Positions 1 to 35,235 of a DNA stretch of 43,634 nucleotides are shown one piece after another. Within the stretch, counting starts at the first letter, position 1; each line of letters opens with the position of its first letter. A program made the translations under genes and the position numbers. Under the pieces are notes generated by a model. It saw nothing but the letters and a program-made list of their open reading frames with translations, did no database searches and was not told the origin of the DNA. Location: the NCBI GenBank assembly GCA_021160725.1, contig JAGHCA010000039.1, positions 1-43,634 on the forward strand, given 5' to 3'. This DNA comes from Dehalococcoidia bacterium. GTDB taxonomy: Bacteria; Chloroflexota; Dehalococcoidia; GIF9; AB-539-J10.

Positions 1-3000
1 CATATGAACCCAGGAACACTGGTCCCGTATGTTTGCCATCTCAAAGAGATACGGATTGAGTCCAGCCTCTCTAATCGTTTCTCGAAACATAGGCTCGTGT
101 GTCCTCGGGGTGCAAGATGCTACAATAACTCGATTGAGTTTGTGTTCCTCAATCGCCTTTTTTATTTTCTCTTGAGTATCCTGTGAACAAGTAAAAAGGT
201 TTCTTTCAGCATGAACTACATTGGGTAGTGTCCCAGCAAACTCGGTGACCTCAGGGACATTTACATACCCGCCGATATTGATTCCACAGTGACAAATGAA
301 AACCCCGATCCTCGGTTCCTCCCCACTGACATCTCTTTCTGGCGGATATTCTTTTCTCTTGGTTAGAGTTCCTCTTGCTGGAGCAAGTAAGGTTGAGATA
401 TCACCTGCAGCTCCGCTTGCTTGCACCACAGTCTCGGGAATATCCTTCGGTGCCGAGAGAGCTCCGCAGACAAATATTCCAGGCATCGAGGTCTCCATTG
501 GCGAAAATGGCCTTGCCTGGCAGAATCCATAAGGGTTTAACTGGATTCCCACCTTTTTAGCGAACTCAACAAATTCCGGAGAAGACTGAAAGCCTACAGA
601 GAGAACCACCATATTGAATTTCTCAGTCTTTACTACGCCATCCTCGGCAGCAAATTTGACTACCAGATCTCCCGTGCTATCTGCTGATTCAATGTTATAA
701 ATCTTCGACCTAACGAAGTCTATGCCGCTTTCTTTCTTGGCACGCTCATAGTATTTGTCAAAATCCTTACCATAAGTCCTGATATCCATGAAGAAAATGG
801 TGATGTCCAGAGGAATTGTGCTATGTTCTTTAGCGATTATTGCTTCTTTAATAGCATAGGTGCAACAAACGGAGGAGCAGTAAGGTCTGTCATGACTTGG
901 ATCCCTGGAACCAACACACTGAATAAAGGCTATCTTCTGCGGTGGGGTCAAATCCGAGAGTCTGAGGAGGGTTCCTTGGAAAGGGCCAGTGGCGCTTAAG
1001 ATACGTTCAAATTCAATGCTAGTCACCACATTGGGGTATTTTCTGTATCCTAGCTCATATTGAACTGAAGGATCAAAGAGGTCATAACCTGTGCTGAAAA
1101 CAACAGCGCCGACATTCAAGTCAACGTATTCATCCTGCATTTCATAATTAATCGCCTTTGCAGTACAACGCGTTTCGCACTCATGGCATTCAATACAACC
1201 CTCTATCTGGGAAGCTAAGCATCTCTTAGCCTCTTCCTGTGCCTCAGAAACAGAATACCCTTGCTCTACTTCTCTAAAATTCTTAATTCGTTTTATTGGT
1301 TCTAACTCCCGCATAGGTATTCTATTTTCGGTAGGAAAACGTGATTTAAGTATGGAAACTTCTCCTGCGCTAAGTTCTTCCGGTTGTCTCTTATCTACTT
1401 TGGAAGACAACGGCTCTCCCTGTAGATATTCGTCTATGGAGAGAGCTGCTTTTTTCCCAGCCGCTATAGCCTCTATGGCTATTGAAGGCCCAGTGGTCAC
1501 ATCACCACCTGCGAAAATCCCTTCCACGTTGGTCGCTAAAGCTTCATCGGTTGAAATTATTCCCCTCACGGAAATTTCTATGCCCAACTCCTTAGCAAAA
1601 CCAAGGGCTGGTACTTGTCCTAAAGCGGTAATAACAGTATCAGCCTCGAGCAAAAACTCCGACCCCTCAATGGGTATAGGCCGACGACGACCACTTGCAT
1701 CAGGCTCGCCAAGTTCCATCTTGATGCATTCTATCTTCGAAACCTTGCCATCTTTTGTTATTATCTTTGTGGGGTTGGTTAAGAATATAAGCTCGATTCC
1801 CTCTTCTTCTGCACCCTTAACTTCAGCAGAGGTGGCTGGCATTTCAGTTCGAGAACGTCGATAGATAACTTTCACTTTAGCACCCAACCGCCTCGCAACC
1901 CGAGAAGCATCAATGGCAGTATTTCCTCCACCAATTATGGCTACCTTTTGCCCTATATTAACCTTCCTGCCCATATTTATATCTCGCAGGAAGTCAATAG
2001 CATGAATTACTCCATGGGAATCTTCGCCTGGGATATTGAGCCTTTTGCTCTCGTGAGCACCTGTGGCAATGAAGATGGCTTGATAAGAATTTTTGAGCTC
2101 TTCAAGCTGGATTTCCTCTCCTATCTTGGCATTTACTTTTATCTCCACTCCTAATCTCTTGATATACTCTATCTCCTTGTTAAGAACATTCTTGGGTAGA
2201 CGATACTCAGGGATTCCAAATCGAAGCATTCCGCCTGGCTCAGGCAAAGCCTCAAATATGGTTATCTCATAACCTTGAAGAGCAAGATCATGAGCTGCAG
2301 CAAGTCCTGCTGGGCCGCTTCCGACAATAGCAACCTTCTTCCCATTTCTAGTGATATCAGGCACTTCGATACTATCAATATCAATTTGGTCAGTGACAAA
2401 TCTCTTCAATTCCCGAATTGCCAGGGGGTCATCGAGTTGCCCCCGGTTGCATACTTGCTCACAGGGTGCGTAACATACCCAACCACAAACAGCAGGGAGA
2501 GGATTAGTACTTCTTATAAGCTCGTACGCTTCTTTAATCCTTCCCTCAGCAATTAAGGCGATATAGCCTAAAACATTCATGTGGATAGGGCAAGCCTCTT
2601 TACAAGCTGCCTTACAAGGTCTTTCTTCTCTCTTGTCAATAACATATGTGTTGGGCACTGCTTGAAGAAAAGGAGTATAAATTGCCTTACGTTCGCGCAA
2701 CCCATGGTCATATTCATTTTTCGTAACAATGGGACACCCCTCAACACATAAGCCACAGCCAGTACATTTTGCCCCATCCACAAACCTTGCCTTCTTCCTC
2801 ACTGAAGCAGTGAAATTTCCTGGTTCTCCCTTGATATCCAGAACTTCAGAATAAGTTAAAAGTTCAATATTCAAGTGTCTGCCACATTCCACCAGCTTAG
2901 GTGACAAAATACACATAGAGCAATCATTGGTGGGGAAGGTCTTGTCGAGCTGAGTCATTACTCCACCAATAGAGGGAGATTTCTCCACAAGATATACATA

Positions 3001-3102
3001 ATATCCAGACTCAGCAAGGTCTAAAGCTGTTTGAATCCCCCCTATACCCCCACCTACGACAAGAACTGCTCCTATTGTGCCATTTCCGTTTTGTTTACCC
3101 AT
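1..3102 (-). CDS. HdrA-like flavoprotein with an inserted GltD/NfnB-like NAD(P)H-FAD module, truncated by the left window edge
   Basis: Not in the ORF track because it has no stop inside the window. Reverse complement from ATG at 3102 (AAAGGTG upstream) stays open to base 1: [47 protein letters not shown]...[12 protein letters not shown], then [26 protein letters not shown]...[47 protein letters not shown]...[20 protein letters not shown]...[13 protein letters not shown] (GltD hallmarks), then HdrA again: [11 protein letters not shown]...[19 protein letters not shown]...[16 protein letters not shown]...[11 protein letters not shown]. Confidence 0.88.
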   Translation of the reverse strand, partial: [1034 protein letters not shown]

Positions 3103-3117
3103 AATAACACCTTTGCA

Positions 3118-3585
3118 TTACAAGCTCTTCAATGCTTCCGCTGCTAGCTCGGAAGGCTTACCTTCGGTTCCTTGAGACCGTGAGCCAACAACTGCAACCA
3201 CCATCTCGTGACGTAATTTTTGGCAGAAGACATCTATCTCCCTTATCTTTTTAACAAAAGAGGGGTCAACGTATCCTTCCCTAACTGCCATGTTTCTTAG
3301 AGCTTTCACGATATCGGCAAAATCAACATTCTGGGGACAGTGCGCCTGACAGTTATAACACTGAATGCAAAACCAGATAGTGTCTGAAGAAAGGACTTCC
3401 TTCCTCATTCCCAAAAGCACCTTGCGAATTATCCGACGGGGATTGAACTTCTGGTCAATATCAGCAACAGGACAGCTGGCAGTGCAGAGTCCACAAGCGA
3501 AGCACACCTTTATATTTTCTCCGCCTGGCTCACTAGCAACATCATACTTGAACTTCGTATCTAGTTCACTCAAAGCTACAGTCAT
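3118..3585 (-). CDS. hdrC: HdrC-like heterodisulfide reductase subunit (two [4Fe-4S] motifs)
   Basis: VCFACGLCTASCPVADIDQKFNPRRIIRK...WFCIQCYNCQAHCPQNVDFADIVKALRN. The track ORF starts at 3699, but ATG at 3585 preceded by AAGGAGG is the likely start. Confidence 0.88.
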   Translation of the reverse strand: MTVALSELDTKFKYDVASEPGGENIKVCFACGLCTASCPVADIDQKFNPRRIIRKVLLGMRKEVLSSDTIWFCIQCYNCQAHCPQNVDFADIVKALRNMAVREGYVDPSFVKKIREIDVFCQKLRHEMVVAVVGSRSQGTEGKPSELAAEALKSL

Positions 3586-3622
3586 TTTTCGCCTCCTTAA
3601 TTCCCAATCAGGGGAGGAAACC

Positions 3623-4519
3623 TTATAGTAGTCCAGCAGCTTCCAGTATGTCAGGCACTTTTTCCTCCCGTCCGATAAACATAATGTGTACACCGTCACA
3701 GATTTTCTCTTCTCTCATTTGCCTTATCATACGGGCAGCTATCTCTATTCCTTTGGCAACTCCTGTTCCCTTCGGAGTTTGAGCCAATTCGTCAATGAGG
3801 TGTTGAGGGATAAAAACACCAGGGACATTGTCGTTCATATACGCAGCCATTTTGGCGCCGATGACGGGTACTATGCCACCAAGAATTTTGACCTTGTCAT
3901 CCATCTTACGAACGAACTCCACAAATCTCTTCAGCTCATCAAGCTCATACACAGCCTGGGTTTGAATGAACTCCACTCCTGCCGCAAGCTTCTTCTCAAC
4001 TTTGATAAGCTGAGGCTCGAGAGGGTCGGCAGAAGGTGTAGCCGTCGTTCCAATACAAAAGTCAATATTCCCATCAAGCTCATTTCCTGCCATGTCTTGG
4101 CCGGAGTTCAATGTGTGAATAAGGTGGATGAGTTGCACCGAATCAAGGTCGAACACTTGCTTTGCTTCCTTATGGTCACCAACATCAATGGAATCACCAG
4201 TAAGGCAAAGGACATTATCTACCCCTCGCGAATAAGCGAAGAGGAGATCTGCTTGGATCGCCAACCGATTCCTATCGCGGCAAGTTACTTGAAGGACTGG
4301 TTCACCACCATGTTCCTTAACCAAGAGGCAAACACCCAGAGAAGGATAGCGCATCACAGAGCTTTGATTATCTGTCACATTTAGACCATCCACCTTATCC
4401 TTGAGAAGCTCAATATGTTCTATCGCCTTTGACACATTGGAGCCTTTCACAGGCGCTGCCTCAGCTGTTACAACGAAGTCTTTTGTTTTGAGAATTTTTC
4501 TAAAAGGTGTTGCCATCAT
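3623..4519 (-). CDS. metF: Methylenetetrahydrofolate reductase MetF family (paralog 1)
   Basis: FVVTAEAAPVKGSN...QVTCRDRNRLAIQADLLFAYSRGVDNVLCLTGDSIDVGDHKEAKQVFDLDSVQLI...AAGVEFIQTQAVYELDELKRF...ILGGIVPVIGAKMAAYM: MetF TIM-barrel motifs. Confidence 0.9.
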   Translation of the reverse strand: MMATPFRKILKTKDFVVTAEAAPVKGSNVSKAIEHIELLKDKVDGLNVTDNQSSVMRYPSLGVCLLVKEHGGEPVLQVTCRDRNRLAIQADLLFAYSRGVDNVLCLTGDSIDVGDHKEAKQVFDLDSVQLIHLIHTLNSGQDMAGNELDGNIDFCIGTTATPSADPLEPQLIKVEKKLAAGVEFIQTQAVYELDELKRFVEFVRKMDDKVKILGGIVPVIGAKMAAYMNDNVPGVFIPQHLIDELAQTPKGTGVAKGIEIAARMIRQMREEKICDGVHIMFIGREEKVPDILEAAGLL

Positions 4520-4526
4520 TTACCCC

Positions 4527-5186
4527 CTAAGCTTTTGCCGCCTGGATTCTGCCAGGTCTTTTCACCGCCCGATAATTCTTCGGTGCGTAGTAATTCCGCA
4601 TCAGATCAAGCCTACCTTGCTTTTCCAGCCTGCGATAAATAAGAACCCAGGCACAATCCTTGTCCGGGTCTATCTCACACTTTCCTCCCTTTCTTGTACC
4701 GCCACAGGGGCCATTAAGCAGCCCTTTGGCACAACGAACTATAGGGCAAATGCCTCCAGTTCGATCTAGAAAACAATCACCACAAGCACCACACATTTCC
4801 ACCCAAAGCCCTTCTTTTTCCGGCATCCCAATGAAGGTGGTATTGACTCCCGGGAACACTGGCTTATCTTCAAACATCTCAGACATGGTTTGTACTCCCG
4901 CCCCACAGGCCAAAGAAATAACCGCCTCAACTTCAGTAACTTTATCTTTAATTTCTGCTACCATCTCCCTTTCACATTGCCTTTCCACTGAAGCCTCAAA
5001 AATCGAAATCTCATTATGCTCTGCACTTCGAGCCAGTCTGAGTTGAGAAGCAAGTATCGCCACCTCCTTCTCTCCACCAGCCCAGCAGACTGTAACGCAG
5101 GTACCACAGCCCGCCACAAGTACTTTCTTGTAGGGAGCCAACATACGCTTTATCTCATCCATAGGTTTTCGTTCAGCGATTATCAT
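4527..5186 (-). CDS. metV: MetV-like methylene-THF reductase C-terminal/zinc-finger family protein (copy 1)
   Basis: Cys-rich CGTCVTVCWAGGEKEVA...CGACGDCFLDRTGGICPIVRCAKGLLNGPCGGTRKGGKCEIDPDKDCAWVLIYRRL; directly upstream of metF. Confidence 0.85.
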   Translation of the reverse strand: MIIAERKPMDEIKRMLAPYKKVLVAGCGTCVTVCWAGGEKEVAILASQLRLARSAEHNEISIFEASVERQCEREMVAEIKDKVTEVEAVISLACGAGVQTMSEMFEDKPVFPGVNTTFIGMPEKEGLWVEMCGACGDCFLDRTGGICPIVRCAKGLLNGPCGGTRKGGKCEIDPDKDCAWVLIYRRLEKQGRLDLMRNYYAPKNYRAVKRPGRIQAAKA

Positions 5187-5187
5187 A

Positions 5188-5574
5188 TTACCTCCCGGAC
5201 TCTTTTATTCTCTTGGTTATTTCATTTACTGCTCCAACGAATTTGTGAGGAGCATTGGGGCTAAGATTGAACATTGCAACAAGTCTGCCATCTGCCTCAA
5301 TTTCTCTCAACAGCAAATTACAGTATTTTACCCTTTCTTTTGTTCTTGTATTCCCAGTCATGTGATGGCAAGCTCCACCCTCGCATCCCATCACCATCAC
5401 TGCTGCAGCTCCTTTCTCAAAAGCTTTCAGAATATGAATCAAATCCACTCGACCAGCACAGGGTACCCGAATTATCCGCAAATTCTCAGGGTAGTGAAGC
5501 TTTAATTTGCCTGCCAAATCAGCAGCAGGATAGGCAGAGTGTTCACAACAAAAAGCCACGATGCAGTTATTCAT
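5188..5574 (-). CDS. mvhD: MvhD-family hydrogenase iron-sulfur subunit
   Basis: CIVAFCCEHSAYPAADLAGKLKLHYPENLRIIRVPCAGRVDLIHILKAFEKGAAAVMVMGCEGGACHHMTGN. Confidence 0.9.
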   Translation of the reverse strand: MNNCIVAFCCEHSAYPAADLAGKLKLHYPENLRIIRVPCAGRVDLIHILKAFEKGAAAVMVMGCEGGACHHMTGNTRTKERVKYCNLLLREIEADGRLVAMFNLSPNAPHKFVGAVNEITKRIKESGR

Positions 5575-7199
5575 GATTCTCCTATGGTTTCAACTTGAGC
5601 CAGGATTTCTTCATCTCTATAACCTTGAAATGTTATTGCCTTAGCCGGACACATGGCAGCACAAATGCCACATGCCTCGCAAGCGAGATCACAAATCTCG
5701 GCCACCTCTTTACCTCCATCTACTCGAACTAATTGGATAGCATTATGTGGACAGATACGGATGCAAGTAAGACAAGCCACACATTTTTGAGGGTCAACTT
5801 TAACTCTCTCCACCTCTGCCAGAATATTCCCTGAGGATAAGAGTTTATAGATACTTACAACAACACTGGAAACATCTGTTAATACCCGGCTAAGGTCTAA
5901 GTTACCTCGGCAGCCACCGATAAAAAATATCCCCTTCTTCTCCGAGGCAACAGGATAGAGGTGCACATTTTCATCCTGATAAAAACCCCTGGAGTCTCTC
6001 CTGATGTTCAGTATTGAGCTCAGAGCCTCAGTTTCCTCCGCAGGAAGAAGGCACTCCTCAGCAACTAGAACATCACAAGTCAGGTTGATATCTTCACCGA
6101 GAAAAATATCTTTAGCCTCGATTTTTATCTTCCCATTTTCCGCAGCAACCTTAGGCGAAACATCACTCTTTAAGAACATCACCCCACAATCTCTTGCCTC
6201 TTGGTATAGTCTTTCGATTCTTTCACTATCGACTTTGACATTCTTGCAAAATACATAAACCTCGCTGCCCCATTTTCTCTTGGCTGCCAAAGCATTATTC
6301 AGAGTAGCCAGTGTAGGCAATCGAGAATTTTCATCGGCAAAATCAAGCATAAAACCTATGGTTCTTGGTCTTATTCTCAGCTCCGGGTCCTCAAGCATGT
6401 GACAGAGCTTTTCCTGTGACACAATGTTAACGTCAGACTTAAGTTTAGACTCTAGAGCGAGCTTCGTTTGATACCCGGTAGCAATTACTAGTGCTCCATA
6501 CTTACGGGAAATCTCCTCACCGCCTTTCCTTATACGCACATTAAAATCTCCAATCTTACCCGATGTTTCTATCACTTCAGCGGGCGCGAGAATCTCGATA
6601 TTTTCATCGCCTTTCACCTCCATCACCATCGCATTAATGTCAAATCCACATAGGTTTTCTAATTCTGTGGTCCCAGTTCCCAAAACTGCCTCCCTCTCCA
6701 ATAGAGTTGTCCGCAAGCCAGCGCGGGAAAGCTGGAGTGCTGCATTAATTGCCTCGAATCCGCCGCCGACCACAAGAACTTCCCTGTTCACAGAAAAATT
6801 ATTCATCTTCACTGGCTGGAGCAACCGAGTTCTGCTTACCGCCATTTTAATAAGTTCCACAACCTTTCCTGTAACATCTCCCTCATGAACCCAGGAGCAC
6901 TGCTCCTTGATATTTGCCATAGAAAACAGATGACCATTCAGCCCGGCATTTTCCAATACTTCACGGAAAACGTGTTCCTTAAACTCAGGGGAACAAGCAG
7001 CAACAACAACCTTCTCTATATTCTCCTCCCTAATACAGGAAAGCATCTTTTTCTTTCCTTCCTCGAGACAAAGGGGAGAAATGAATTTGATAGAAGTGAC
7101 ACCGGGCAACTCGACTACCTTTTTAACAACGGCATCAAAATCAATGTTGTTCAAAGTTCCGCTGCAATTGCAGATAAAAACGCCTATCTTTGTTTCCAT
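5571..7199 (-). CDS. HdrA-like protein, C-terminal half (second FAD domain plus C-terminal 2x[4Fe-4S] ferredoxin)
   Basis: IGVFICNCSGTL...VVAACSPEFKEHVFREVLENAGLNGHLFSMANIKEQCSWVH...VLVVGGGFEAINAALQLSRAGLRTTLLEREAVLG...CVACLTCIRICPHNAIQL...CEACGICAAMCPAKAITF. Confidence 0.85.
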   Translation of the reverse strand: METKIGVFICNCSGTLNNIDFDAVVKKVVELPGVTSIKFISPLCLEEGKKKMLSCIREENIEKVVVAACSPEFKEHVFREVLENAGLNGHLFSMANIKEQCSWVHEGDVTGKVVELIKMAVSRTRLLQPVKMNNFSVNREVLVVGGGFEAINAALQLSRAGLRTTLLEREAVLGTGTTELENLCGFDINAMVMEVKGDENIEILAPAEVIETSGKIGDFNVRIRKGGEEISRKYGALVIATGYQTKLALESKLKSDVNIVSQEKLCHMLEDPELRIRPRTIGFMLDFADENSRLPTLATLNNALAAKRKWGSEVYVFCKNVKVDSERIERLYQEARDCGVMFLKSDVSPKVAAENGKIKIEAKDIFLGEDINLTCDVLVAEECLLPAEETEALSSILNIRRDSRGFYQDENVHLYPVASEKKGIFFIGGCRGNLDLSRVLTDVSSVVVSIYKLLSSGNILAEVERVKVDPQKCVACLTCIRICPHNAIQLVRVDGGKEVAEICDLACEACGICAAMCPAKAITFQGYRDEEILAQVETIGES

Positions 7200-8483
7200 T
7201 CAATGTCTTCCTTGGTTGCCTTGCCTCTGGCTAGCAGATTCGGTCAGTACTTGCCTTGCCTTCGACGCTGCTGCTATCCCATGAGCAATGGAGTCAGGTA
7301 TATCCTTGGGCCCCTGGCAAGTTCCGGCGATGAAAATGCCATCAATATTGGTTTCGTTAGTGTTCATGGAATCCCTTTCAGCAAAGAATCCGTTGTCAGA
7401 CAAATTTATCCCCAAAGTTCTGGCCAAGTCCCAAGATTCCTTACTTGGCGAAATACCCACGGAAAGGACAACAAGTTCAAACGTATCTCTGCATACTTTT
7501 CCTTGAGAGATATCTTCAAACCTAACCTCAAGTTCGCCGGACGCAGTCTGCAGAATCTCGACTGGCACTCCGCGGACAAATCGTATATTTTCCTTGTATT
7601 CTTCATAGAATTGAGCAAAACCCTTGCCGGCAGTCTGCAGATCAATGTAAAAGATAGTCACCCGAGCATCAGGGTTATGATACTTGATAAGCCCGGATAG
7701 CTTCATGGCATATTTACAGCACACATGTGAACAATAATCGTGATCTTCGTCTCTGGAACCAACACATTGAATAAATGCAATATTGCGGGGTTCTACACCG
7801 CTCGCGGGAAGCTTGAGACAGCCCTCTCGAGTGAAAATCTGCTCCAGATCGAGGCCGGTTAAAACATTAGGATATCTACCATAACCCAAGGAGCCTTTCT
7901 TCCTGGCATCAAAAACATCAAAACCAGTGGCGACAATGAGGGCTCCGACACTCAACTCTTGTTCCTTTGATTCGCCTTTGAATTTTATAGCTTTAGTGGG
8001 GCAACCTTTTCGACAGAGGTCACACTTCTCTCCTTTGAAGCGCAGACAAAGTTCTTCATCAAGAACATAGGAAAAAGGTGTCGCCTCAGCAAAAGAAGGA
8101 TGGATTGCTTTAGGATCAGTAGGACAGACCTCAGTACAAAGACCACAAGCTATGCATCTCTCTTGATCAATATATTGGAGTTTCTGAGTTATCGTAACGC
8201 GAAAATTACCAAGTTCGCCGCTAAGTCTCCTTATCGTAGAATTGGTTAGGAGCCTTATTTGAGGATGACTTACCGTTTCTTTTATCTTGTCGGGAACTAC
8301 ACAGGCAGAACACTGGGAACAGACATCTGTTGCTTTACAGCAGAAGGAGGCACTGTGTCCACCGATCACTGCCTCCTTTTCTAGCAAATATACGTTTATA
8401 CCAGAGTTAGCTAGCTCTAATGCTGATGCTATCCCTGATATGCCTGCCCCAACAACCAGAACATTATTGCTCTCCTTATTCAC
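7200..8483 (-). CDS. hdrA: HdrA-like protein, N-terminal half (FAD-binding, FeS)
   Basis: [40 protein letters not shown]...[20 protein letters not shown]...[15 protein letters not shown]...[27 protein letters not shown]...[28 protein letters not shown]. Confidence 0.88.
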   Translation of the reverse strand: [427 protein letters not shown]

Positions 8484-8521: not shown

Positions 8522-8920
8522 TTATTTTTTAAGCAAGTCCTCCACCCTGTTGACTAATTCCTGAGGATCAACTGGCTTCTGAAGATAATCCTCTGCTTCC
8601 ATCATCATTCCCTCTCGCATGGAAAGGTGCATTTTTTCTCTATCCTCAGGGTAAACAGTGAGCATCAACACAGGGATATCGGAGAAAAAATGATATTTTT
8701 CGTCGGTTTTAAGTTCTCTGCAAACCTCAAAGCCGTGCTTACCGGGCATTATTACATCCAGGATAATCAAGTCAGGCCTTTCCTCCACCACCTTACGTAA
8801 ACCTTCCTCGCCATTATACGCGCATACCACATTATAGGACTTAGGCTCAAGGATTTTTCTCACTAGTGTATGGACATCAGGGTCATCATCAATTACCAAA
8901 ATCTTAATCTGTTTTGGCAT
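8522..8920 (-). CDS. Single-domain response regulator (receiver)
   Basis: ILVIDDDPDVHTLVRKIL...PDLIILDVIMPGKHGFEVCREL...YLQKPVDPQEL: receiver D-D, D and K residues. Confidence 0.9.
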   Translation of the reverse strand: MPKQIKILVIDDDPDVHTLVRKILEPKSYNVVCAYNGEEGLRKVVEERPDLIILDVIMPGKHGFEVCRELKTDEKYHFFSDIPVLMLTVYPEDREKMHLSMREGMMMEAEDYLQKPVDPQELVNRVEDLLKK

Positions 8921-9314
8921 CCTTTCCTCCTTTAGATAAAAGTTTCTCTACACGCCCGAGTAGAATGAAGGGTTCAATGGGTTTTTCTATGTAATCATCA
9001 ACATCAAGTTTACGACCAAGCTCCAACTCATATCGACGTTGACTGGCTTCCTCCCTTACTGAACTTATAACAAGGACAGAAATATCAGGATATTCCTTCT
9101 CTTGACTAATTCTTAATTCCTTGATCACATCAAAGCCATCCATCTCTGGCATTAAGAGGTCCAAAAGCATTAGATCTGGCTTCTCTTCTTTTAGCTTTCT
9201 CAACGCCTCACGTCCATCACAAGCCTCAATTACCTCATAAGAACGGGAATTTAGTACACTGGCAATAGCCAGTCGCATATCAGGATCATCATCCACTATT
9301 AAAATCTTCGCCAT
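8904..9314 (-). CDS. Single-domain response regulator (receiver)
   Basis: ILIVDDDPDMRLAIASVL...PDLMLLDLLMPEMDGFDVIKEL...YIEKPIEPFILL; overlaps both neighbouring genes. Confidence 0.9.
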   Translation of the reverse strand: MAKILIVDDDPDMRLAIASVLNSRSYEVIEACDGREALRKLKEEKPDLMLLDLLMPEMDGFDVIKELRISQEKEYPDISVLVISSVREEASQRRYELELGRKLDVDDYIEKPIEPFILLGRVEKLLSKGGKDAKTD

Positions 9315-10473
9315 CTAACTTATCCCCGTTTGGTTCGCTTTTTTTAGGCAAAATGAATGTAAATTTGCTTCCCTTGCCTGTCTCAGGGCAGGGACTAGTT
9401 GCCCAGATTTTACCACCATGGCCCTCAATTATTCTCTTGCTTATAGAAAGCCCTAAGCCAGTCTCCCTTCCCTCCACATTAATACTCTTACTCTTATAGA
9501 AACCATCAAATATTTTGGGTAAGTCCTCGCTAGGAATTCCGATTCCGCTGTCAATTACATCAACTTGCAAATTATCTTTATTATCCTTTACCTTAACCGT
9601 TATTCCACCGGAGCGAGTAAACTTGATAGCATTGGACAACAAGTTTGTCACTACTTGCTTAAGCCGACTAGCACTTCCAAGAATCATAGGAAGCTCTGGT
9701 GGGGCTTCAAAAACCAGTTGCAACCCCTTTTCTACGGCTAAGGGACGCATTGTCTCAACACAATCTTCTATCACTTTTGTCAGAGAAACTTCTTCTGTTC
9801 TGAATCCTCCGAAATCAACACGGGAAAGATCAATCATGTTACTTATTAAATTGAGCAGGTCAGAAAGTCTCTTACTGCTCCTTTTAATTATATTTTTTTG
9901 CTCTTCACTCAATTCCCCGACAAAACCATCAAGTAAGAGCCGATTGTAGCTTTCCGCTGCAGCTAGGGGAGCCTTCAAGTCATGGAAAATAATAGATAGA
10001 ATACGTTCCATAGTTTGCTTGGTATGCTCCAGCCTTGAAGCCACCACTCTCACAAGATTACATGCCACTTTATAGCCCATTTGAGGGTCTTCATTCAGCA
10101 AGGCTTTAAGCTTGTTTCCGTCCAAGGCGATAATCTCAGTCTTCTCCAGACACCGGCCCGAAGAGGTAAGAATATGAGGTTCCATCAGTGCTGACCAACA
10201 AAAACTGGCACCTGGTGATAACGCATCAATTGTAGCTTTTTCAACTGAGCTATGGCTTATAGCAAGTTCTGTCTCCAAAGCTACCTTGCCTGATTTAAGA
10301 GTCTGAACATAGTTACATTGCTCACCTTCACAGAACATGACTGCTCCCGGTTCATAAAATTGCTCCTGGCAAAGCGGAAGCAGTTTATCTAACTCATCAT
10401 CAGTCAAGTTGTGAAATAGCTCTGAAGATTTTAATGCTTCCTTAATTGAGTTTATCTCGGTTACCGCTTTCAT
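9289..10473 (-). CDS. Soluble sensor histidine kinase with N-terminal cNMP-binding-like domain
   Basis: N-terminal LSELFHNLTDDELDKLL...FYEPGAVMFCEGEQCNYVQTLKSGKVAL (cNMP fold); IIFHDLKAPLAAAESYNRLLLDGF (H-box); NLLSNAIKFT, DSGIGIPSEDLPKIF, GLGLSISKRIIEGHGGKIW (HATPase N/G boxes). No TM segment seen. Confidence 0.88.
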   Translation of the reverse strand: MKAVTEINSIKEALKSSELFHNLTDDELDKLLPLCQEQFYEPGAVMFCEGEQCNYVQTLKSGKVALETELAISHSSVEKATIDALSPGASFCWSALMEPHILTSSGRCLEKTEIIALDGNKLKALLNEDPQMGYKVACNLVRVVASRLEHTKQTMERILSIIFHDLKAPLAAAESYNRLLLDGFVGELSEEQKNIIKRSSKRLSDLLNLISNMIDLSRVDFGGFRTEEVSLTKVIEDCVETMRPLAVEKGLQLVFEAPPELPMILGSASRLKQVVTNLLSNAIKFTRSGGITVKVKDNKDNLQVDVIDSGIGIPSEDLPKIFDGFYKSKSINVEGRETGLGLSISKRIIEGHGGKIWATSPCPETGKGSKFTFILPKKSEPNGDKLDGEDFNSG

Positions 10474-10599: not shown

Positions 10600-11523
10600 A
10601 TGAAGACCAGAAGCAATCTAGCAAAGACATTGGAGACAGGGCAATTTGCAGTCACTGCCGAAATCAGTTCTCCCCAAAGTATGGACTTCGAGACGATCAG
10701 GAAGAATATCAATCTCATCAAAGGTTACGTTGATGCCTTTAATGTTCCTGATGGACAGGCAGCCGTGGTAGCAATGGCAAGCTGGGCAGTCTGTCTTGTA
10801 GGTATGGAGGAGGGTATCGACGCCATAGCCCATATGACCTGTCGGGATCGAAATCGAATTGCCCTCCAGATGGATATCTTGGCAATCTCCGCTTATGGTG
10901 TTAACAATATTTTATGTGTATCAGGGGATCCTATCTCCTTTGGCAACCATCCCGAGGCAAAGCCTGTCTTTGACCTCGACTCCATCCAGCTTATCAGGAT
11001 GGTCAAGAAACTTAGAGATGAAGGGAAATTTGATAATGGAGAGTCCATAGTGGGGACAAAGCCCAAGCTTTTCATCGGGGCAGACTTAAATCCTTTTACC
11101 CGACCATTGGAATCTGCGGTGGGTCGCCTTATGGAAAAGGTTACTGCAGGAGCAGATTTTGTCCAGACTCAGCCTGTATATAACATTGAGGAATTTAAAA
11201 AATGGATGGAACTGCTTCGTGCAGAAGGATTATACAAAGAGATAAAAATTCTGGCTGGAATTACTCCTGTAACATCCCTAGCAGCAGCAAGATATATGAA
11301 GACGAAAATCCCTAATGTTGATATTCCTGAGATAATTATTGAACGCCTTAAAAAGGCTCGTAACAAAGAGGAGGCAGCAGAGGAAGGGTTAAAGATTGCC
11401 GTGGAAACAATAAAGCAATTAAAGCAAACCGAAGGAGTATCTGGTGTCCATATCATGACCCTGCAACGGGAGGAACTTATTCCTAAGATATGCAAAGCAG
11501 CCAGCCTTTATCCTCGTCCCTAA
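10600..11523 (+). CDS. metF: Methylenetetrahydrofolate reductase MetF family (paralog 2, no adjacent metV)
   Basis: MKTRSNLAKTLETGQFAVTAEISSPQS...MTCRDRNRIALQMDILAISAYGVNNILCVSGDPISFGNHPEAKPVFDLDSIQLIRM...GADFVQTQPVYNIEEFKKW. Confidence 0.9.
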   Translation: MKTRSNLAKTLETGQFAVTAEISSPQSMDFETIRKNINLIKGYVDAFNVPDGQAAVVAMASWAVCLVGMEEGIDAIAHMTCRDRNRIALQMDILAISAYGVNNILCVSGDPISFGNHPEAKPVFDLDSIQLIRMVKKLRDEGKFDNGESIVGTKPKLFIGADLNPFTRPLESAVGRLMEKVTAGADFVQTQPVYNIEEFKKWMELLRAEGLYKEIKILAGITPVTSLAAARYMKTKIPNVDIPEIIIERLKKARNKEEAAEEGLKIAVETIKQLKQTEGVSGVHIMTLQREELIPKICKAASLYPRP

Positions 11524-21494: not shown

Positions 21495-22142
21495 TTAAGC
21501 AGAGGAAATATCTTTAATTAACTTCCAGATGATAGCTTCACAAAGCACAGTTACATCCTCGGTGGAAAGATAATCAGAAATATTGGCATCGAACAATATG
21601 TTTCCATTGGGAGCAACCTCTTCATCCCCTCTCCATAATACTAAGGTTATGGGCACATGACTGAAAGCATTAATGATTACAGAGGCATCTCCATAGTCTG
21701 CTTTGTCGCCGCCTAATTTTACTGCCTTGCTTATAAGCAGCTCAGGATTGCGGCCAAAATGCTTTACCAAAGGGTTTATGGTTCTCTGGAAAAATGCTGG
21801 AAAATAGTCCATGCCTCCCGGCAGCTGTTTATAGGTAATCAATATATCGGTAGGCGGGGTGCCCTTTGCCATAGTGAAGTAGTGAAGTATCAGGGTTTTG
21901 TCCTTCAGTGGGACTTCTACTTTGCTGTCCCCTAACGAAATTTCGACATCGGGAAAGGTGATATGATACGGCTTATTTAGATAATCAATAATTATCTTAT
22001 TAGTACCTACATACATCGCACCACTTTTACAGCATTGTTCTTCTACATCGCTGATTTTGGACAACTGCTCACGAGCAAGATTATAAGAAAGCTCAAAGCC
22101 CTGCTCCCGGGAACCGTGTGATGAAGAATGTTGGTTTTTCAT
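21495..22142 (-). CDS. DUF3786-family protein
   Basis: YNLAREQLSKISDVEEQCCKSGAMY...LHYFTMAKGTPPTDILITYKQLPGGMDYFPAFFQRTINPLVKHFGRNPELLISKAVKLGGDKADYGDASVIINAFSHVPITLVLWRGDEE; overlaps the metF paralog 3 stop by 1 nt. Confidence 0.7.
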   Translation of the reverse strand: MKNQHSSSHGSREQGFELSYNLAREQLSKISDVEEQCCKSGAMYVGTNKIIIDYLNKPYHITFPDVEISLGDSKVEVPLKDKTLILHYFTMAKGTPPTDILITYKQLPGGMDYFPAFFQRTINPLVKHFGRNPELLISKAVKLGGDKADYGDASVIINAFSHVPITLVLWRGDEEVAPNGNILFDANISDYLSTEDVTVLCEAIIWKLIKDISSA

Positions 22143-23071
22143 TATGGTGTAAACTTAGGACGGGGTAAAAGACCAGCCGCCTCTACTATCTCAGGTACTG
22201 CTTCCTCCCACTCAATAGCCATGAGATGAATACCCGCTACACCCTCAATTTCCCGCACCTGATTGATAATATCAATGCAGAGTTTGATGCCCTCCTTAGG
22301 CACTTGTTCCTTAGGCACTCCTTGAAGCTGTGTGATAACACTATCTGGTACATCCATCCCCGGAACTCTGGTTTTCATATATCTTGCAGCACCTACCGAT
22401 TTTATAGGAGCAACACCAGCAAGTATCTTTACCCTCTCATGTAATCCTCTGTCTCGTACCATCTTCATCCATTCAGCGAATTTATCCACATTGTAGACAA
22501 TCTGGGTTTGAATAAAATCCGCCCCTGCTGCTACTTTCTTAGCAAGACGTGCCACCCGGAACTCAAAAGGGTCGGCAAAGGGATTAGCAGCAGCCCCGAT
22601 GAAGATACGAGGCTCGACCACCATTTCCTCGCCACACTGAAACTCCTTGTCATCCCGCATGCCCCTCACCATCTTAACAAATTGAATAGAATCGAGATCA
22701 TAAACTCCTTTGGCTGTAGGATGATTGCCGAATTTTTGGTGGTCGCCCGTGAGACACAACATATTATTGATGCCCAGTGCTGCAATACCCAACACATCCA
22801 TCTGAAGGGCAATGCGATTGCGGTCGCGGCAGGTCATCTGGACAACAGGGTCTAAACCTTCCTCTTTGGCTATAAGGCAAGCTGCCCAGGATGCCATGCG
22901 CACTACTGCAGTTTGACCATCGGTGATATTGCAAGCGTCTACATAACCTTTGAGTATCTTTGCTTTTCTCTTAATTACCTCAGAGTCAGCGCTTTGTGGC
23001 GGTCCCAATTCACCTGTGACAGCAAACTGTCCAGCCTCCAGCACCTGTTCCAAATTACTTTTTGTCTTCAT
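22142..23071 (-). CDS. metF: Methylenetetrahydrofolate reductase MetF family (paralog 3)
   Basis: MKTKSNLEQVLEAGQFAVTGELGPPQSAD...MTCRDRNRIALQMDVLGIAALGINNMLCLTGDHQKFGNHPTAKGVYDLDSIQFVKM...GADFIQTQIVYNVDKFAEW. Confidence 0.9.
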   Translation of the reverse strand: MKTKSNLEQVLEAGQFAVTGELGPPQSADSEVIKRKAKILKGYVDACNITDGQTAVVRMASWAACLIAKEEGLDPVVQMTCRDRNRIALQMDVLGIAALGINNMLCLTGDHQKFGNHPTAKGVYDLDSIQFVKMVRGMRDDKEFQCGEEMVVEPRIFIGAAANPFADPFEFRVARLAKKVAAGADFIQTQIVYNVDKFAEWMKMVRDRGLHERVKILAGVAPIKSVGAARYMKTRVPGMDVPDSVITQLQGVPKEQVPKEGIKLCIDIINQVREIEGVAGIHLMAIEWEEAVPEIVEAAGLLPRPKFTP

Positions 23072-23096
23072 AAGCCCCTCCTAATCTTGCCATTTG

Positions 23097-23828
23097 CTAT
23101 ACTCCTAACGCCTCTAACGCCTTCTTCGTCCCCTTCAATTCCTGTAGCAGGTCGATGGCTTCAACCTCTAAACTGCGTGGTCTTACTGCTTTACTCCAAT
23201 CATGTGGCTCTTGTATCTTCGACAGGTCATCAAGTTCACCAAGTTCCTTTAATCTCCTGTATATCATGACCCAAGCACAGTCACGTGTAGAGTCTACTTC
23301 ACACTTGCCAACCGTGGTCGTTCCGCCACACGGGCCATTCAATAACCCCTTTGGGCATTATACAAGTGGACAAATCCCGGCAGTTCTACCAAGCTCGCAT
23401 TCCCCACAGGCTTGGCGTTCCTCTTTGAACTTGGTAGGTCCTCCGCTGGAAAAGCCAAGGGCATTGTTTGATGGATACATAAGCTTCACAATACCCATTT
23501 CCTCTTCCAAATATCCTCTTACAGCTTGCAAACCATCTCCACAGCTCTGCATCAATATGGCATCGCACTTCTCTATCTCCTCCCTATGCTCCTTCAGAAA
23601 CATGGAAGACATCGGAAGGTAGCAGGTAAATATTCCGAATGGCAATCCAATCTTGCCTACGATCTCCTTCCCTTTCTTTGTCAATTTCTCTGCCATCTCA
23701 TCCACCTCTTTTATGCCACCTGTGTGGAAGATTGTGGCACATCCTCCACAGTCCATCAGAAATATCTTTTTCTTACCATCCAGATATCCTAAAATCTCAT
23801 CAAAAGGTTTTTGAACTTGCGCATTCAT
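23097..23828 (-). pseudogene. metV: MetV-like copy 2, interrupted by a single in-frame TAA (23358-23360)
   Basis: The two track ORFs are in the same frame: ...CGECELGRTAGICPLV-TAA-CPKGLLNGPCGGTTTVGKCEVDSTRDCAWVMIYRRL. Both intact paralogs have Arg at this position (CPIVRCAK, CPIARCSK). Confidence 0.75.
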
Positions 23829-23908
23829 TTCTTCCCTCCTAAATAATTCATGTATTTGACATGTGAGCCGCGGTAGCTCTTAAGGACTGCCTCTCTCACA
23901 CAATAACA

Positions 23909-24559
23909 TTAAGAAAGCCTCTTTACTGGTGGTCCTGACGTAAGGCTTACACTCCAATTCTTTGGCATCACAAGCCTTTCCAATTTATCAAGTTGTCCTA
24001 GTTTGGCAAGACGATCAATGATCTGTTGCCAAACGCAAGGTATGTCTGGATTAACTTCACATTTACCACCTTGCGAGCCACCACAGGGACCATTAAGCAG
24101 ATGCTTAGAACATCGGGCAATAGGACAGAGGCCACCAGTAAACTCTAACACACAATCACCACACTCAAGGCAGCGCTCCGCTTCTTTCCATTCAGCATGA
24201 GCACCACCTGAGGACAGAGTATCGCAGCCAGGATGGACTACCTTATTCACTAATTCCGCCACCGTCTGCACTCCAGCACCATCTGTCAGAACTAGGATAG
24301 AATCAGCAGCAGCAATTTCCTTTTTGTAGGTTCTAAGTTTCAAGTTGGTTAACGCACTATCACATAACATATCCACAACTACCGAGCCTGCGATAGTTTT
24401 GCCTTGTGCCTGCAGATTTCTCTCCATTTCTGCTACTTGCTTTTCCCCACCACTCTTCCAACCTTCAGCGCAGCCTTTACAGCCGACGAGAAAGACGTTC
24501 TTATCCCCATCAAGGTAGCTTAGAATTTCTTCAATTGGTTTTTGTTCTGAAATCAGCAT
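23909..24559 (-). CDS. metV: MetV-like zinc-finger/FeS protein (copy 3)
   Basis: VFLVGCKGCAEGWKSGGEKQVAEMERNL...CLECGDCVLEFTGGLCPIARCSKHLLNGPCGGSQGGKCEVNPDIPCVWQQIIDRL. Confidence 0.85.
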   Translation of the reverse strand: MLISEQKPIEEILSYLDGDKNVFLVGCKGCAEGWKSGGEKQVAEMERNLQAQGKTIAGSVVVDMLCDSALTNLKLRTYKKEIAAADSILVLTDGAGVQTVAELVNKVVHPGCDTLSSGGAHAEWKEAERCLECGDCVLEFTGGLCPIARCSKHLLNGPCGGSQGGKCEVNPDIPCVWQQIIDRLAKLGQLDKLERLVMPKNWSVSLTSGPPVKRLS

Positions 24560-25014
24560 TTTCCCTCTCCTTCAGAATTATTAAGTTCTGCCAAAATAGC
24601 ATCTATTATCTGAGGTATTTTATCTTGAAGCTCTGGCGACAATTCCAAACCCCACTCTATCTCTTTGGGCTCAACTCCAATAATGACAGTCTCGCCTATG
24701 CTATGCCAAAGCTTCATTAACATTAAATTATCCACTAAGCCCATATCGTGAAGGGATAGAAATGGCTTTGGCTCTAGGGCTATATCCTCAATGTTAAAAC
24801 GGTAAATTTGTCCAGGCGGTCCTCCACCCTTAACAGCATCTACTATGATCAATTTATCAGTGCCCTCAGCAAACTGCAATATATCGGGGCATGTTCCTCC
24901 ATCTATTATTTTTACCTCGGTGAGATGGATTTCTTCCAAAGCATGTGCTACATGGCAACCAATCCCGTCGTCTCTTAACAGAGCACTTCCTATTCCCAGA
25001 ACAAATTTTCCCAT
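24553..25014 (-). CDS. [NiFe] hydrogenase maturation endopeptidase (HyaD/HycI family)
   Basis: MGKFVLGIGSALLRDDGIGCHVAHALEE...IIDGGTCPDILQF...KLIIVDAVKGGGPPGQIYRF...LSLHDMGL. The track start at 25047 is in-frame upstream; MGKF at 25014 fits family N-termini. Confidence 0.88.
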   Translation of the reverse strand: MGKFVLGIGSALLRDDGIGCHVAHALEEIHLTEVKIIDGGTCPDILQFAEGTDKLIIVDAVKGGGPPGQIYRFNIEDIALEPKPFLSLHDMGLVDNLMLMKLWHSIGETVIIGVEPKEIEWGLELSPELQDKIPQIIDAILAELNNSEGEGKC

Positions 25015-25040
25015 TCCCGAACTTTCCTTCAAATTTCTTA

Positions 25041-26600
25041 CTAACAAACCCTAAATTCCCCCAGGTCATGCCCTTTAGGACTGAGCAAATGTACAGAACA
25101 GGCAAGACAAGGATCAAAAGATCTCACAATGCGCACAATCTCAAAGGGGTTAGCTTCATCCCTTATATTGGTGCCAGTGATAGCCTGCTCTAATGGTCCA
25201 GGTTGGTCATTATCATCCCTGGGAGAAATATTCCAAGTTGATGGAGTAACAACCTGATAATTAGCAATCTTGCCTTCTTGTATCTCCATCCAGTGCCCCA
25301 AGGCACCCCTCGCTGCACCGACCAATCCCATTCCAGTAGTCTCCTCAGGGAGTTTATAGTTTATGTAAGCTGACTCACCAGGCTTGAGCTCTAGAACCCA
25401 GCCGGCCATGGCATCGGCTATGATTTTGGTTTCTAAGGCTCGAGCAAGATTACGCCCCATTACAGAAAACATCTTGTCGGGTCTTAGATTTGCCTGCGAT
25501 AAGGCGGAATCAACTAGGCTCTTAACCTCAGGATTGTCACCGACATAGTTGACCATGATTCGAGCCAATGGCCCAACTTCAAAAACTGCCTTATCATAGC
25601 GAGGCGATTTTAGCCAGGAATAAGCCCCCTTCTTCTCTTCGTCAGGAACAACATCTCCACGGGAGGGATGTCTGCCGCTGATAGAATCAGCATACCAGGA
25701 ATGTTTCACTTCTTCGGTAATTTTAGTTGGATCGAGTTCACTATACTTAAGATTAGTTGCGGTGGTCCCAGGCTTAAAAAATCTGTTTCTCTTGGTGAGA
25801 TCTGCTTCCTTTCCATCCATCTCATAGGAACCATAGGCAAGCAAATTTCCACAGCCACGACCAATCTCAAAATAATCCGAGTAAACCTGGGCTATCACCA
25901 GCACATCAGGGAGGTATACATTATCAATAAACTCCTGAAGCTCCTTCAACTTCCACAGGAAGGATGTTATATTATCAACTGTGGGTACAGAAGCAACTCC
26001 GCCGGGCATTATGCCCACGTTGTGAGGCATCTTTCCACCGAACAGGGCAAGCATCTCCTGGCTTTTACGACGCATGTCGAACGCCGAGACATAGTGCGCT
26101 ACCGCTTGTTCATTAGCTTCATCGGACAGGCGATAATCACCTTCATAACGGGGTACAAAAGGCCCGAGTTCCCCGCGGGCAATGAAGTTCTTTATTGAAT
26201 TTAAGGCTGGATTATTTCCCTCATACTTTGCTAATCTAGCCACATCTACATAATCAAGAGCCACCAGGTGATAAAAATGAAGGATGTGGTCAGCAATATG
26301 GGCTGCCCCCAGAATTAGATTACGAATAATTCTTCCGTTGTCGGGAATTTTATCAGCGATGCCGAAGGCACTATCCAGGTTTAAAGCGGCAGCAATAGAA
26401 TGACTTGTGGGGCAAACTCCACAAATACGTTGTGTTATTCGCTGGGCATCACGAGGATCTCTGCCTCTCAGGATCAGCTCTAAGCCGCGGAACAACGTTC
26501 CTGAACTTTTAGCCTCTTTTACTTTACCATCCTCAACTACTGCCTCCACCTTAAGATGTCCCTCAATACGACTTACCGGATCGATTATAATCTTGCCCAT
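25041..26600 (-). CDS. [NiFe] hydrogenase large subunit
   Basis: IIDPVSRIEGHLKVE; RICGVCPTSHS; C-terminal DPCLACSVHLLSPKGHDLGEFRVC (Ni ligands DPCxxCxxH plus a cleavable C-terminal peptide). Confidence 0.95.
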   Translation of the reverse strand: MGKIIIDPVSRIEGHLKVEAVVEDGKVKEAKSSGTLFRGLELILRGRDPRDAQRITQRICGVCPTSHSIAAALNLDSAFGIADKIPDNGRIIRNLILGAAHIADHILHFYHLVALDYVDVARLAKYEGNNPALNSIKNFIARGELGPFVPRYEGDYRLSDEANEQAVAHYVSAFDMRRKSQEMLALFGGKMPHNVGIMPGGVASVPTVDNITSFLWKLKELQEFIDNVYLPDVLVIAQVYSDYFEIGRGCGNLLAYGSYEMDGKEADLTKRNRFFKPGTTATNLKYSELDPTKITEEVKHSWYADSISGRHPSRGDVVPDEEKKGAYSWLKSPRYDKAVFEVGPLARIMVNYVGDNPEVKSLVDSALSQANLRPDKMFSVMGRNLARALETKIIADAMAGWVLELKPGESAYINYKLPEETTGMGLVGAARGALGHWMEIQEGKIANYQVVTPSTWNISPRDDNDQPGPLEQAITGTNIRDEANPFEIVRIVRSFDPCLACSVHLLSPKGHDLGEFRVC

Positions 26601-27469
26601 TAATTCACCTCTCCCTCTGGCAGAGCAACTTCGCTAACTTTCTCGTAAAGCGGAGATATGTCAAAGAACTCGGGCTCGGTACAGCCAATACAAGTAGCAC
26701 CACAACCTACACACCAATTCACTTTATTGTTCCACAACCTCAGAGGACAATCAGCATGAGTTATAGGACCCCTACACCCTAATTCGTAATTGCAGCCGGG
26801 ATCGCCAAACTTTTTGGCAAACTTATTCTCATCATAGTAGGCTCGCCGTGGACAGTTTTCGTGGATGGTTTGTCCATAGAAAGCCTTGGGGCGGCTATGT
26901 TCATCCAAATCATCCGGCTCCGGCAAGCCGGAAAGCAGGATGGTTGCCACTGTGCCTACAAACCAGTCAGGATGTGGCGGGCAACCGGGGACATTTACTA
27001 ATGGAGTACTGATACCCTTGGCTTGAAGAACCTCACCGACGCTGCGACACTGAGTAGGGTTAGGATATGCAGCAGGAATTCCCCCAAAAGCAGCACAGCT
27101 ACCCAAAGCAATAACTGCCAGCGCATCCTTAGCCAACGTTTCAATCCACGCTTTCATAGTCACTGGCCTACCATCTTGCTCTCCAACCACCCCATAGATA
27201 CCATCTTTAGCTGTAGGTATAGCCCCTTCTACAATGAGAATGTAACCTCCCTTTTTCTTCTTCGATGTATCCACCATAACCTCAATGGCAGGTGCTCCCG
27301 CGCCTGCCATTACAGTAGGATGAAACCTCAGATTTATATGACAGCCTGGGAGCACTTCATCAACCAAGAGGTTTTTAATAGAGGGATTTATAACATTGAG
27401 AAGAGAAACTGAGCATCCAGTACAGCCAGCGGCCTGCAACCATATCGCCGGATATTCTTTTGTATCCAT
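26600..27469 (-). CDS. [NiFe] hydrogenase small subunit without Tat signal
   Basis: IWLQAAGCTGCSVSLLN; IALGSCAAFGGIPAAYPNPT; VNVPGCPPHPDWFVGTVA; C-terminal WCVGCGATCIGCTEPEFFD. An in-frame TGA lies two codons upstream of the ATG, so no hidden N-terminal signal. Confidence 0.93.
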   Translation of the reverse strand: MDTKEYPAIWLQAAGCTGCSVSLLNVINPSIKNLLVDEVLPGCHINLRFHPTVMAGAGAPAIEVMVDTSKKKKGGYILIVEGAIPTAKDGIYGVVGEQDGRPVTMKAWIETLAKDALAVIALGSCAAFGGIPAAYPNPTQCRSVGEVLQAKGISTPLVNVPGCPPHPDWFVGTVATILLSGLPEPDDLDEHSRPKAFYGQTIHENCPRRAYYDENKFAKKFGDPGCNYELGCRGPITHADCPLRLWNNKVNWCVGCGATCIGCTEPEFFDISPLYEKVSEVALPEGEVN

Positions 27470-31390: not shown

Positions 31391-31889
31391 ATTTCCCTTC
31401 TTTAGGCTCGCCTTGAGCTTCTTGTTTATACGGTATTAAAGCCTCCTCCATCTTAAAGGGTGTCATCCTAGGATAAATTTTATCCTTTACTACTACGACA
31501 GGGGCCAGCATGCAACACCCGATACAAGCCACCCTTTCCAAGCTGAAGTTACCATCCTCGGTGGTTTCGCCTACCTTGATATCTAACTCACGCTCCAGGG
31601 CTTCTAAAATAAGTTTACCCCCCGCTAAGTGGCAGGCAGTTCCCATACAAACCATGATATGGTATTTTCCTAACGGAACAAAACGAAACTGATTATAAAA
31701 GGTAGCAACTCCCCAGACCTCAACCACTGGCATCCCCAAGAAACCAGCAATTTCCTGCATCGCTTTCCTGGGGAGATATCCCAGCTTTGTCTGAACTTCT
31801 TGCAATAGCGGGATTAAATTTTTCTCTTCTTTTTTATGCGAGCTTAAAATCTCAGCTATCGTTTGGCTAGCCTGTTTCTCTGTAATCAT
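31374..31889 (-). CDS. NuoE/HydC-like [2Fe-2S] subunit, copy 2
   Basis: LIPLLQEVQTKLGYLPRKAMQEIAGFLGMPVVEVWGVATFYNQFRFVPLGKYHIMVCMGTACHLAGG...VACIGCCMLAPVVVVKDKIYPRMT; overlaps acsC stop by 4 nt. Confidence 0.92.
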   Translation of the reverse strand: MITEKQASQTIAEILSSHKKEEKNLIPLLQEVQTKLGYLPRKAMQEIAGFLGMPVVEVWGVATFYNQFRFVPLGKYHIMVCMGTACHLAGGKLILEALERELDIKVGETTEDGNFSLERVACIGCCMLAPVVVVKDKIYPRMTPFKMEEALIPYKQEAQGEPKEGKSKSKS

Positions 31890-33250: not shown

Positions 33251-33262
33251 GGCAAATCTCCT

Positions 33263-33395: not shown

Positions 33396-33399
33396 CCTT

Positions 33400-34647: not shown

Positions 34648-34652
34648 TTTCC

Positions 34653-35204: not shown

Positions 35205-35235
35205 TTTTTCATCTTTTTAAGCCATTTTCCTGTTA

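Follow-up and report, generated by a model that had tools for sequence, protein, structure and literature searches.

The closest described relatives of the locus reported here are the Type IV (Hdr-type) methylene-tetrahydrofolate (methylene-THF) reductases. Their third electron carrier is still unsettled (PMC13040438, PMC8760232), and its identity decides whether this step of the Wood-Ljungdahl pathway conserves energy. The Moorella thermoacetica enzyme is MetVF-HdrCBA-MvhD (Mock et al. 2014, described in PMC9430772, PMC8760232 and PMC13040438), with an HdrA of 1487 amino acids (aa) that has two halves and a GltD insertion (PMC9430772). In Sporomusa ovata, the two-half HdrA (942 aa) lacks GltD and has E/K at one of two flavin sites; MetVF contacts HdrA and MvhD in pull-downs, although it does not co-purify with the Hdr proteins (PMC9430772). 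Among the Chloroflexota, marine Anaerolineae carry hdrABC-mvhD-metVF clusters with HdrB, which is fused to HdrC in DscP3 (Sewell et al. 2017, PMC5736913), and in 2017 the marine subphylum I Chloroflexi were the only reported source of metV and of such clusters (PMC5736913). The present work concerns an HdrB-less MetVF-Hdr operon in a 43,634-nucleotide stretch (the window) from a Dehalococcoidia bacterium, which is the whole of contig C70 (JAGHCA010000039.1) of source genome G000 (1.45 Mb, 95.9% complete), and which extends the range of Hdr-linked MetVF to the Dehalococcoidia.

The operon runs on the minus strand (window 8483-1) in the order HdrA_a, HdrA_b, MvhD1, MetV, MetF, HdrC and an HdrA-GltD fusion. 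Intergenic gaps of 0, -4, 1, 7, 37 and 15 nucleotides from HdrA_a onward make it one tight unit (Table 1). It shares with Moorella the MetV, MetF, HdrC and MvhD proteins and an HdrA of about 1490 aa in two halves with GltD in the N-terminal part, but has no HdrB, contains an additional pair of HdrA proteins (HdrA_a and HdrA_b) and a second MvhD, and places hdrC and the GltD-type hdrA downstream of metF. As in Type IV enzymes, metV and metF are clustered with hdrA, hdrC and mvhD, and a predicted GltD domain would supply the NAD(P)H-oxidising module on HdrA. Given HdrB is missing from the cluster in every genome tested, the operon is described as a Type IV variant and not as a standard member. 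We consider it fairly probable that it encodes an asymmetric two-hub, HdrB-less variant of the Moorella-like enzyme, in which the oxidation of NAD(P)H would drive that of methylene-THF to its reduced form in a coupled reaction, ferredoxin being the second electron partner. The original prediction, made from the sequence of the window alone, had described seven co-directional genes as a MetFV-Hdr-MvhD set of the Moorella type that has two hubs of the HdrA class; all seven are present, their families are confirmed by Pfam/NCBIfam profiles, and domains and conservation bear out the two hubs. It had also taken the HdrA that bears an NAD(P)H module for the unusual part, which does not hold, since the Moorella HdrA has the same GltD insert (PMC9430772). 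The novelty in relation to Moorella lies in HdrA_a/HdrA_b, an extra pair that comes with an MvhD of its own, and in the loss of HdrB.

The original prediction had proposed to look for the core order elsewhere and had named a lack of conservation as speaking against its view. The order is in fact shared by 17 further Dehalococcoidia genomes from five families (18 genomes including G000), where it could be followed over its full length or as far as the contigs reach. The carriers are G005, G006, G007, G008, G010, G011, G014, G019, G020, G025, G026, G028 and G408 in family f1, and G127 (f53), G155 (f46), G189 (f67) and G209 (f22) outside it, with records that include SOJG01000113, JAUWQY010000015, SKVJ01000055, JAUWQP010000010 and JACUUR010000002. 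Protein identity among carriers is mostly 55-90%, and given the order is kept in 17 further genomes, the arrangement is not a chance one. Even sampling found HdrA_a orthologs in 13 of 393 genomes of the class, and HdrA_b orthologs in four of 400 genomes of the phylum, all in the genus of the source genome; a plasmid search returned distant HdrA only. The closest MetF1 matches in the class (65-90%) are operon members, bar one at 65% in G046, and the sampled MetFs at 62-65% lie in two other gene settings. One is an FdhA-NuoE-type cluster, and the other (L092) is a Moorella-like HdrC-HdrB-HdrA(GltD)-MvhD-MetV-MetF cluster of the same class in the classical order, where the GltD-type HdrA lies by MetVF with HdrB present.

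The two hubs were compared by aligning their residues to M. thermolithotrophicus HdrA (5ODC), whose numbering is used for E356, K409 and Cys197. HdrA_a consists of a flavin adenine dinucleotide (FAD)/TrxR-like domain with an inserted two-cluster ferredoxin domain, without the N-terminal domain and the C-terminal ferredoxin. Its Cys197, the eight cysteines of the inserted ferredoxin and those of the TrxR-domain cluster are kept in 16 of 16 orthologs, as is E356; position 409 is Lys in nine of the 16 and Arg in seven, and the window protein keeps both E356 and K409. HdrA_b has the N-terminal Fe-S domain, a FAD domain without inserted ferredoxin, and a C-terminal two-cluster ferredoxin; Cys197 and the four TrxR-cluster cysteines are gone in all 14 orthologs, and E356/K409 in nearly all. 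The same complementary split is seen between the halves of the fusion (11/11), with the N half keeping both E and K in all eleven and the C half variable. A GltD/PRK12771-type domain at fusion residues 163-562 (544 bits against a cut-off of 516) interrupts the inserted ferredoxin domain and separates its two Cys motifs (103-114 and about 636-647).

A heterodimeric HdrA is recognised by one copy having the N-domain without Cys197 and the other copy the reverse (Chadwick et al. 2022, PMC9012536), and this is the Cys197 pattern in every HdrA_a, HdrA_b and fusion sequence counted above. Given these complementary domain and Cys197 losses, HdrA_a and HdrA_b are predicted to form an obligate heterodimer, and both hubs should be HdrA dimers of an asymmetric kind, the one encoded by two genes and the other by a fused gene. 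A tree of 63 rows places HdrA_a, HdrA_b, the fusion N half and the fusion C half in four separate, well-supported clades, with HdrA_a sister to the fusion N half (98/90); HdrA_b and the fusion C half sit on long branches, and their position deeper in the tree is not reliable. The split HdrA of the original prediction is hence correct as two open reading frames (ORFs), but not as one broken HdrA, for a conserved complementary pair is found in every relative read far enough; a pseudogene or frameshift is ruled out by the separate conserved genes and clades and the complementary domain losses. Tandem HdrA with complementary Cys197/N-domain loss and an NfnB/GltD-like insert in the inserted ferredoxin domain are also known from anaerobic methanotrophs (ANME; Chadwick et al. 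2022, PMC9012536). These are archaeal, however, and ANME-1 HdrA clusters are not found with MetF, whereas here both features occur with MetVF in one HdrB-less operon.

The HdrA-GltD ORF is cut by the contig edge, and full-length fusions of relatives have about 1480-1506 aa. When the C-terminal part of a relative's fusion was used as query against the source genome, it matched C70:1-210 (99%) and then C27:1-1371 (86%), and for this reason contig C27 appears to carry on the gene. The remaining ~455 aa begin at base 1 of C27, with two residues missing at the junction, and are followed by MvhD2 and then by a convergent MobA-like gene. No HdrB gene was found on C27 past the fusion or in the operon of the source genome, and an HdrB just past the contig edge is ruled out for this genome by C27, and for the relatives as well. 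A profile search with PF02754 (CCG) in 11 genomes found CCG proteins only on non-operon contigs, with the exception of a 392-aa protein on the G026 operon contig, which lies ~8 kb upstream and outside the operon. A CCG motif scan was negative for all operon genes and positive for three HdrB-bearing control loci (L036, L092 and L044), and its sole match in the window is a NuoF-like protein far from the operon. The absence of HdrB from the operon is thus real, as the original prediction had noted for the visible part, and the complete hdrABC in an adjoining separate operon that it had named as speaking against its view is not there. As to the C-terminal tail of HdrC in relation to HdrB loss, HdrCs that occur with HdrB likewise align mainly over the cluster region.

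CCG proteins are nevertheless present elsewhere in the source genome (302 aa on C41; 387, 408 and 528 aa on C12), and the Wood-Ljungdahl cluster of 'Ca. Contubernalis' has HdrA and MvhD with HdrBC elsewhere (PMC10608574). An ordinary Moorella-type complex could then be imagined, in which a trans-encoded HdrB docks on HdrC and the HdrA_a/HdrA_b pair is merely accessory. The C41 HdrB, however, sits inside a fumarase/SdhAB-like operon with its own HdrC-like gene, the C12 proteins include HdrC-like segments and form part of another Hdr cluster, which has HdrA and MvhD genes of its own, and the operon keeps HdrC in all genomes covered and HdrB in none. This makes the alternative quite improbable.

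At the C41 locus (L044), fumarase alpha and beta genes flank a succinate dehydrogenase/fumarate reductase-like operon, whose subunits include HdrC-like and HdrB-like ones, and gene runs resembling it were seen in relatives (L045-L048, L050). The C12 locus (L035, G000:C12:18000-37000) holds several HdrA and HdrA-GltD proteins, three HdrC/CCG proteins, MvhD domains and a GltD protein.

In the favoured two-hub complex, hub 1 would be the HdrA_a/HdrA_b heterodimer with MvhD1, a pairing supported by G019, where HdrA_b and MvhD1 are fused in one 680-aa protein. HdrA_a would contribute a potentially bifurcating FAD, a ferredoxin-type domain and an HdrC-facing cluster, and HdrA_b an N-terminal cluster and a C-terminal ferredoxin accepting electrons from MvhD. 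Hub 2 would combine MvhD2 with the two-half HdrA that contains GltD, whose insertion would have made the ferredoxin-type domain of this HdrA a port of entry for NAD(P)H, and HdrC, without HdrB, would most likely connect hub 2 to hub 1 (or to MetV). In the simplest circuit, electrons would pass from NAD(P)H through GltD, hub 2, HdrC and hub 1 to MetVF, which would reduce methylene-THF, while ferredoxin would be exchanged at HdrA_a; bifurcation would proceed in the acetogenic direction and be reversible. The formation of the complex, the wiring through HdrC, the identity of the second carrier and the direction are what we infer. The original prediction had suggested routing among NAD(P)H, ferredoxin and methylene-THF, and the layout of cysteines and domains is consistent with these putative ports.

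Each hub has its own MvhD and, by the Cys197 criterion, is self-sufficient, and the gene order groups HdrA_a-HdrA_b-MvhD1-MetVF apart from HdrC-HdrA-MvhD2. The operon might accordingly encode two independent complexes, a QmoAB-like HdrA_a/HdrA_b/MvhD1-MetVF and a separate HdrC-HdrA(GltD)-MvhD2 oxidoreductase. We regard this as unlikely given the strict co-conservation in one operon across five families, the classical L092 order, in which MetVF directly adjoins the GltD-type HdrA as its partner, and the lack of an obvious NAD(P)H or other substrate entry in hub 1 alone. QmoABC itself comprises two HdrA-like flavoproteins and an HdrC-like part, with no HdrB. Compared with this description, the operon has no membrane subunit and no sulfate-reduction context and is linked to MetVF; membership was rejected, as the source genome gave no match to PF02665 (NarI/HdrE-like cytochrome b).

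Menaquinol instead of ferredoxin has been proposed as co-reductant for S. ovata (PMC9430772) and Moorella (PMC13040438), and the combined size of HdrA_a and HdrA_b (427 + 542 aa) is comparable to the two-half S. ovata HdrA. A membrane-linked enzyme of the Sporomusa/Moorella style is nonetheless very improbable here. PF02621 (MqnA/MqnD-type) had no match and MenD none above cut-off in the six operon genomes searched, and PF02665 (NarI-type cytochrome b) had no match in the source genome. In addition, the pair differs from the S. ovata protein in being two genes instead of one, in lacking an HdrB partner, and in the full inserted ferredoxin domain of HdrA_a, the extra half of S. ovata being described as a TrxR-like domain only. 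Given that neither menaquinone-pathway markers nor a NarI-type cytochrome b were found, ferredoxin is favoured over a quinone as partner of the two-hub complex. The source genome encodes a group-4-like [NiFe] hydrogenase large subunit that has both CxxC motifs and adjoins a NuoH/EchB-like gene, and this hydrogenase is a plausible consumer of reduced ferredoxin. Rnf-based coupling was rejected, as no RnfC was found above cut-off in the source genome. The hydrogenase locus (L097, G000:C76:1-10300) is a group-4-like [NiFe] hydrogenase/complex I-like run with large subunit, NuoH/EchB-like and NuoI-like genes.

The set could also work mainly in reverse, oxidising methyl-THF and confurcating its electrons with those of ferredoxin to NAD(P)H in a bacterium that lives by oxidising acetate or methyl groups. 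The Wood-Ljungdahl pathway is reversible in syntrophs (PMC10608574), and NAD(P)H- or formate-type input modules are usable as electron sinks. Direction is not readable from sequence, however, and the hydrogenase-MetVF cluster and the carbon monoxide dehydrogenase/acetyl-CoA synthase (CODH/ACS) genes in the window fit either direction; we rate mainly reversed operation as rather unlikely, with a chance that is not negligible.

Several points weigh against the two-hub, ferredoxin-coupled enzyme. For the Moorella enzyme, the second acceptor is reportedly not ferredoxin (PMC13040438). The replacement of K409 by Arg in seven of 16 HdrA_a orthologs, and the Ser that MvhD1 has for the second CxxC Cys in 13 of 13 orthologs (MvhD2 copies keep Cys), suggest the textbook bifurcation route may be modified. 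An HdrB encoded on C12 or C41 could act in trans, the C70-C27 join is deduced from the interrupted gene, and the absences rest on draft metagenome-assembled genomes, that of the source being 95.9% complete. The missing ferredoxin activity of Moorella could, on the other hand, reflect GltD interrupting the corresponding part of HdrA. The variant described here sets the NAD(P)H port (GltD hub) apart from the candidate ferredoxin port (HdrA_a hub), and because the ports are apart, HdrB is lacking and no menaquinone-pathway marker was found, the question of ferredoxin or quinone becomes directly testable.

The input module of hub 2 varies among relatives. In G020 and G025, HdrA is split at the GltD site and NuoE, NuoF and a NuoG-like [2Fe-2S]/4Fe-4S segment are found instead; in G011, the GltD position is occupied by an Fe-S/FdhB-like segment together with an FdhA of 679 aa; and G189 has two copies without GltD (1016 and 945 aa), which adjoin [NiFe]-hydrogenase genes. 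Given the modules swap at the same point, hub 2 differs in its electron source from relative to relative, with no change in hub 1 and MetVF. HdrA/NfnB insertions at the inserted ferredoxin domain are known from ANME-1 (PMC9012536); in the open-licence literature searched, no description was found of the module exchange or of the two-hub HdrB-less set. We tentatively suggest, as a possibility with somewhat less than even chances, that the inserted ferredoxin domain of the second HdrA is an exchangeable input socket (GltD for NAD(P)H, NuoEF(G) for NADH, FdhAB-like for formate). It would feed a constant HdrB-less core of HdrA_a/HdrA_b-MvhD-HdrC-MetVF, with two bifurcating hubs in series and HdrA_a restoring the ferredoxin port lost to the socket.

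The features of the operon and its upstream genes are presented in Table 1. The start of HdrC was reset to the ATG at 3585, given the longer GTG ORF runs into metF and relatives start at about this point. A structure prediction for MetV was poor (mean predicted local distance difference test score, pLDDT, of 60.5) and was discarded; the PDB fold search returned nothing below E 0.001.

Table 1. Genes of the MetVF-Hdr operon and of the unit upstream of it (window positions unless a contig is named).
Feature	Position	Strand	Evidence
HdrA_a, 427 aa	7200..8483	-	NF040770 139-563; PDB HdrA chains 8rvv/5odc, E 1e-93
HdrA_b, 542 aa	5571..7199	-	NF040770 1-233 and C-terminal Fer4
MvhD1, 128 aa	5188..5574	-	PF02662, E 1.1e-41
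MetV1, 219 aa	4527..5186	-	PF12225, E 2.5e-35; ortholog alignment
MetF1, 298 aa, methylene-THF reductase	3623..4519	-	PF02219, E 2.1e-37
HdrC, 155 aa, two 4Fe-4S motifs	3118..3585	-	TIGR03290, E 1.1e-28, 100 bits (below the 160-bit cut-off)
HdrA-GltD fusion, first 1034 aa of about 1490	1..3102	-	profiles; predicted to continue on G000:C27:1-1368
MvhD2	G000:C27:1365-1793		PF02662, E 1.2e-56; directly after the fusion
RR1, stand-alone receiver	8522..8920	-	PF00072; synteny upstream of the operon in most relatives
RR2, stand-alone receiver	8904..9314	-	Blast similarity to RR1; synteny
Histidine kinase (HK) with N-terminal cNMP-binding domain	9289..10473	-	PF00027, PF00512, PF02518

The histidine kinase is the first gene of the unit, and HK-RR2-RR1 (10473-8522) precedes the Hdr genes in the same direction. 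No DNA-binding output domain was found in the kinase and the two receivers. The trio is largely kept upstream of the Hdr genes in relatives.

Further genes of one-carbon metabolism were observed in the window. A third MetF (10600-11523, plus strand), without MetV, is divergent from the kinase gene of the operon, and a MetF2/MetF3-like gene is kept there in many relatives. A minus-strand run at 21495-27469 encodes the small and large subunits of a [NiFe] hydrogenase, a maturation protease, MetV2, a 156-aa MetV-like protein, MetF2 and a DUF3786 protein, and is possibly a hydrogenase-linked MetVF; a similar set, HydS-HydL-HycI-MetV-MetF, is present at L036. The CODH/ACS run (31886-39362, minus strand) comprises CO_dh epsilon (PF02552), a short CdhC/ACS (415 aa), CdhA, CdhD, CdhE and a methyltransferase, and this set is archaeal-looking, though in a bacterium.

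Among the relatives, the FdhA-NuoE-type setting of MetF consists of FdhA-NuoE-(NuoF::GltD, ~1020 aa)-MetV-MetF with no Hdr genes. It was seen at L084 (G046), L085 (G009), L086 (G015), L088 (G006:C41), L091, L093, L094 and L095, and at L087, where it is cut by the contig end. It is possibly a formate/NAD(P)H-coupled methylene-THF reductase outside the four described types.

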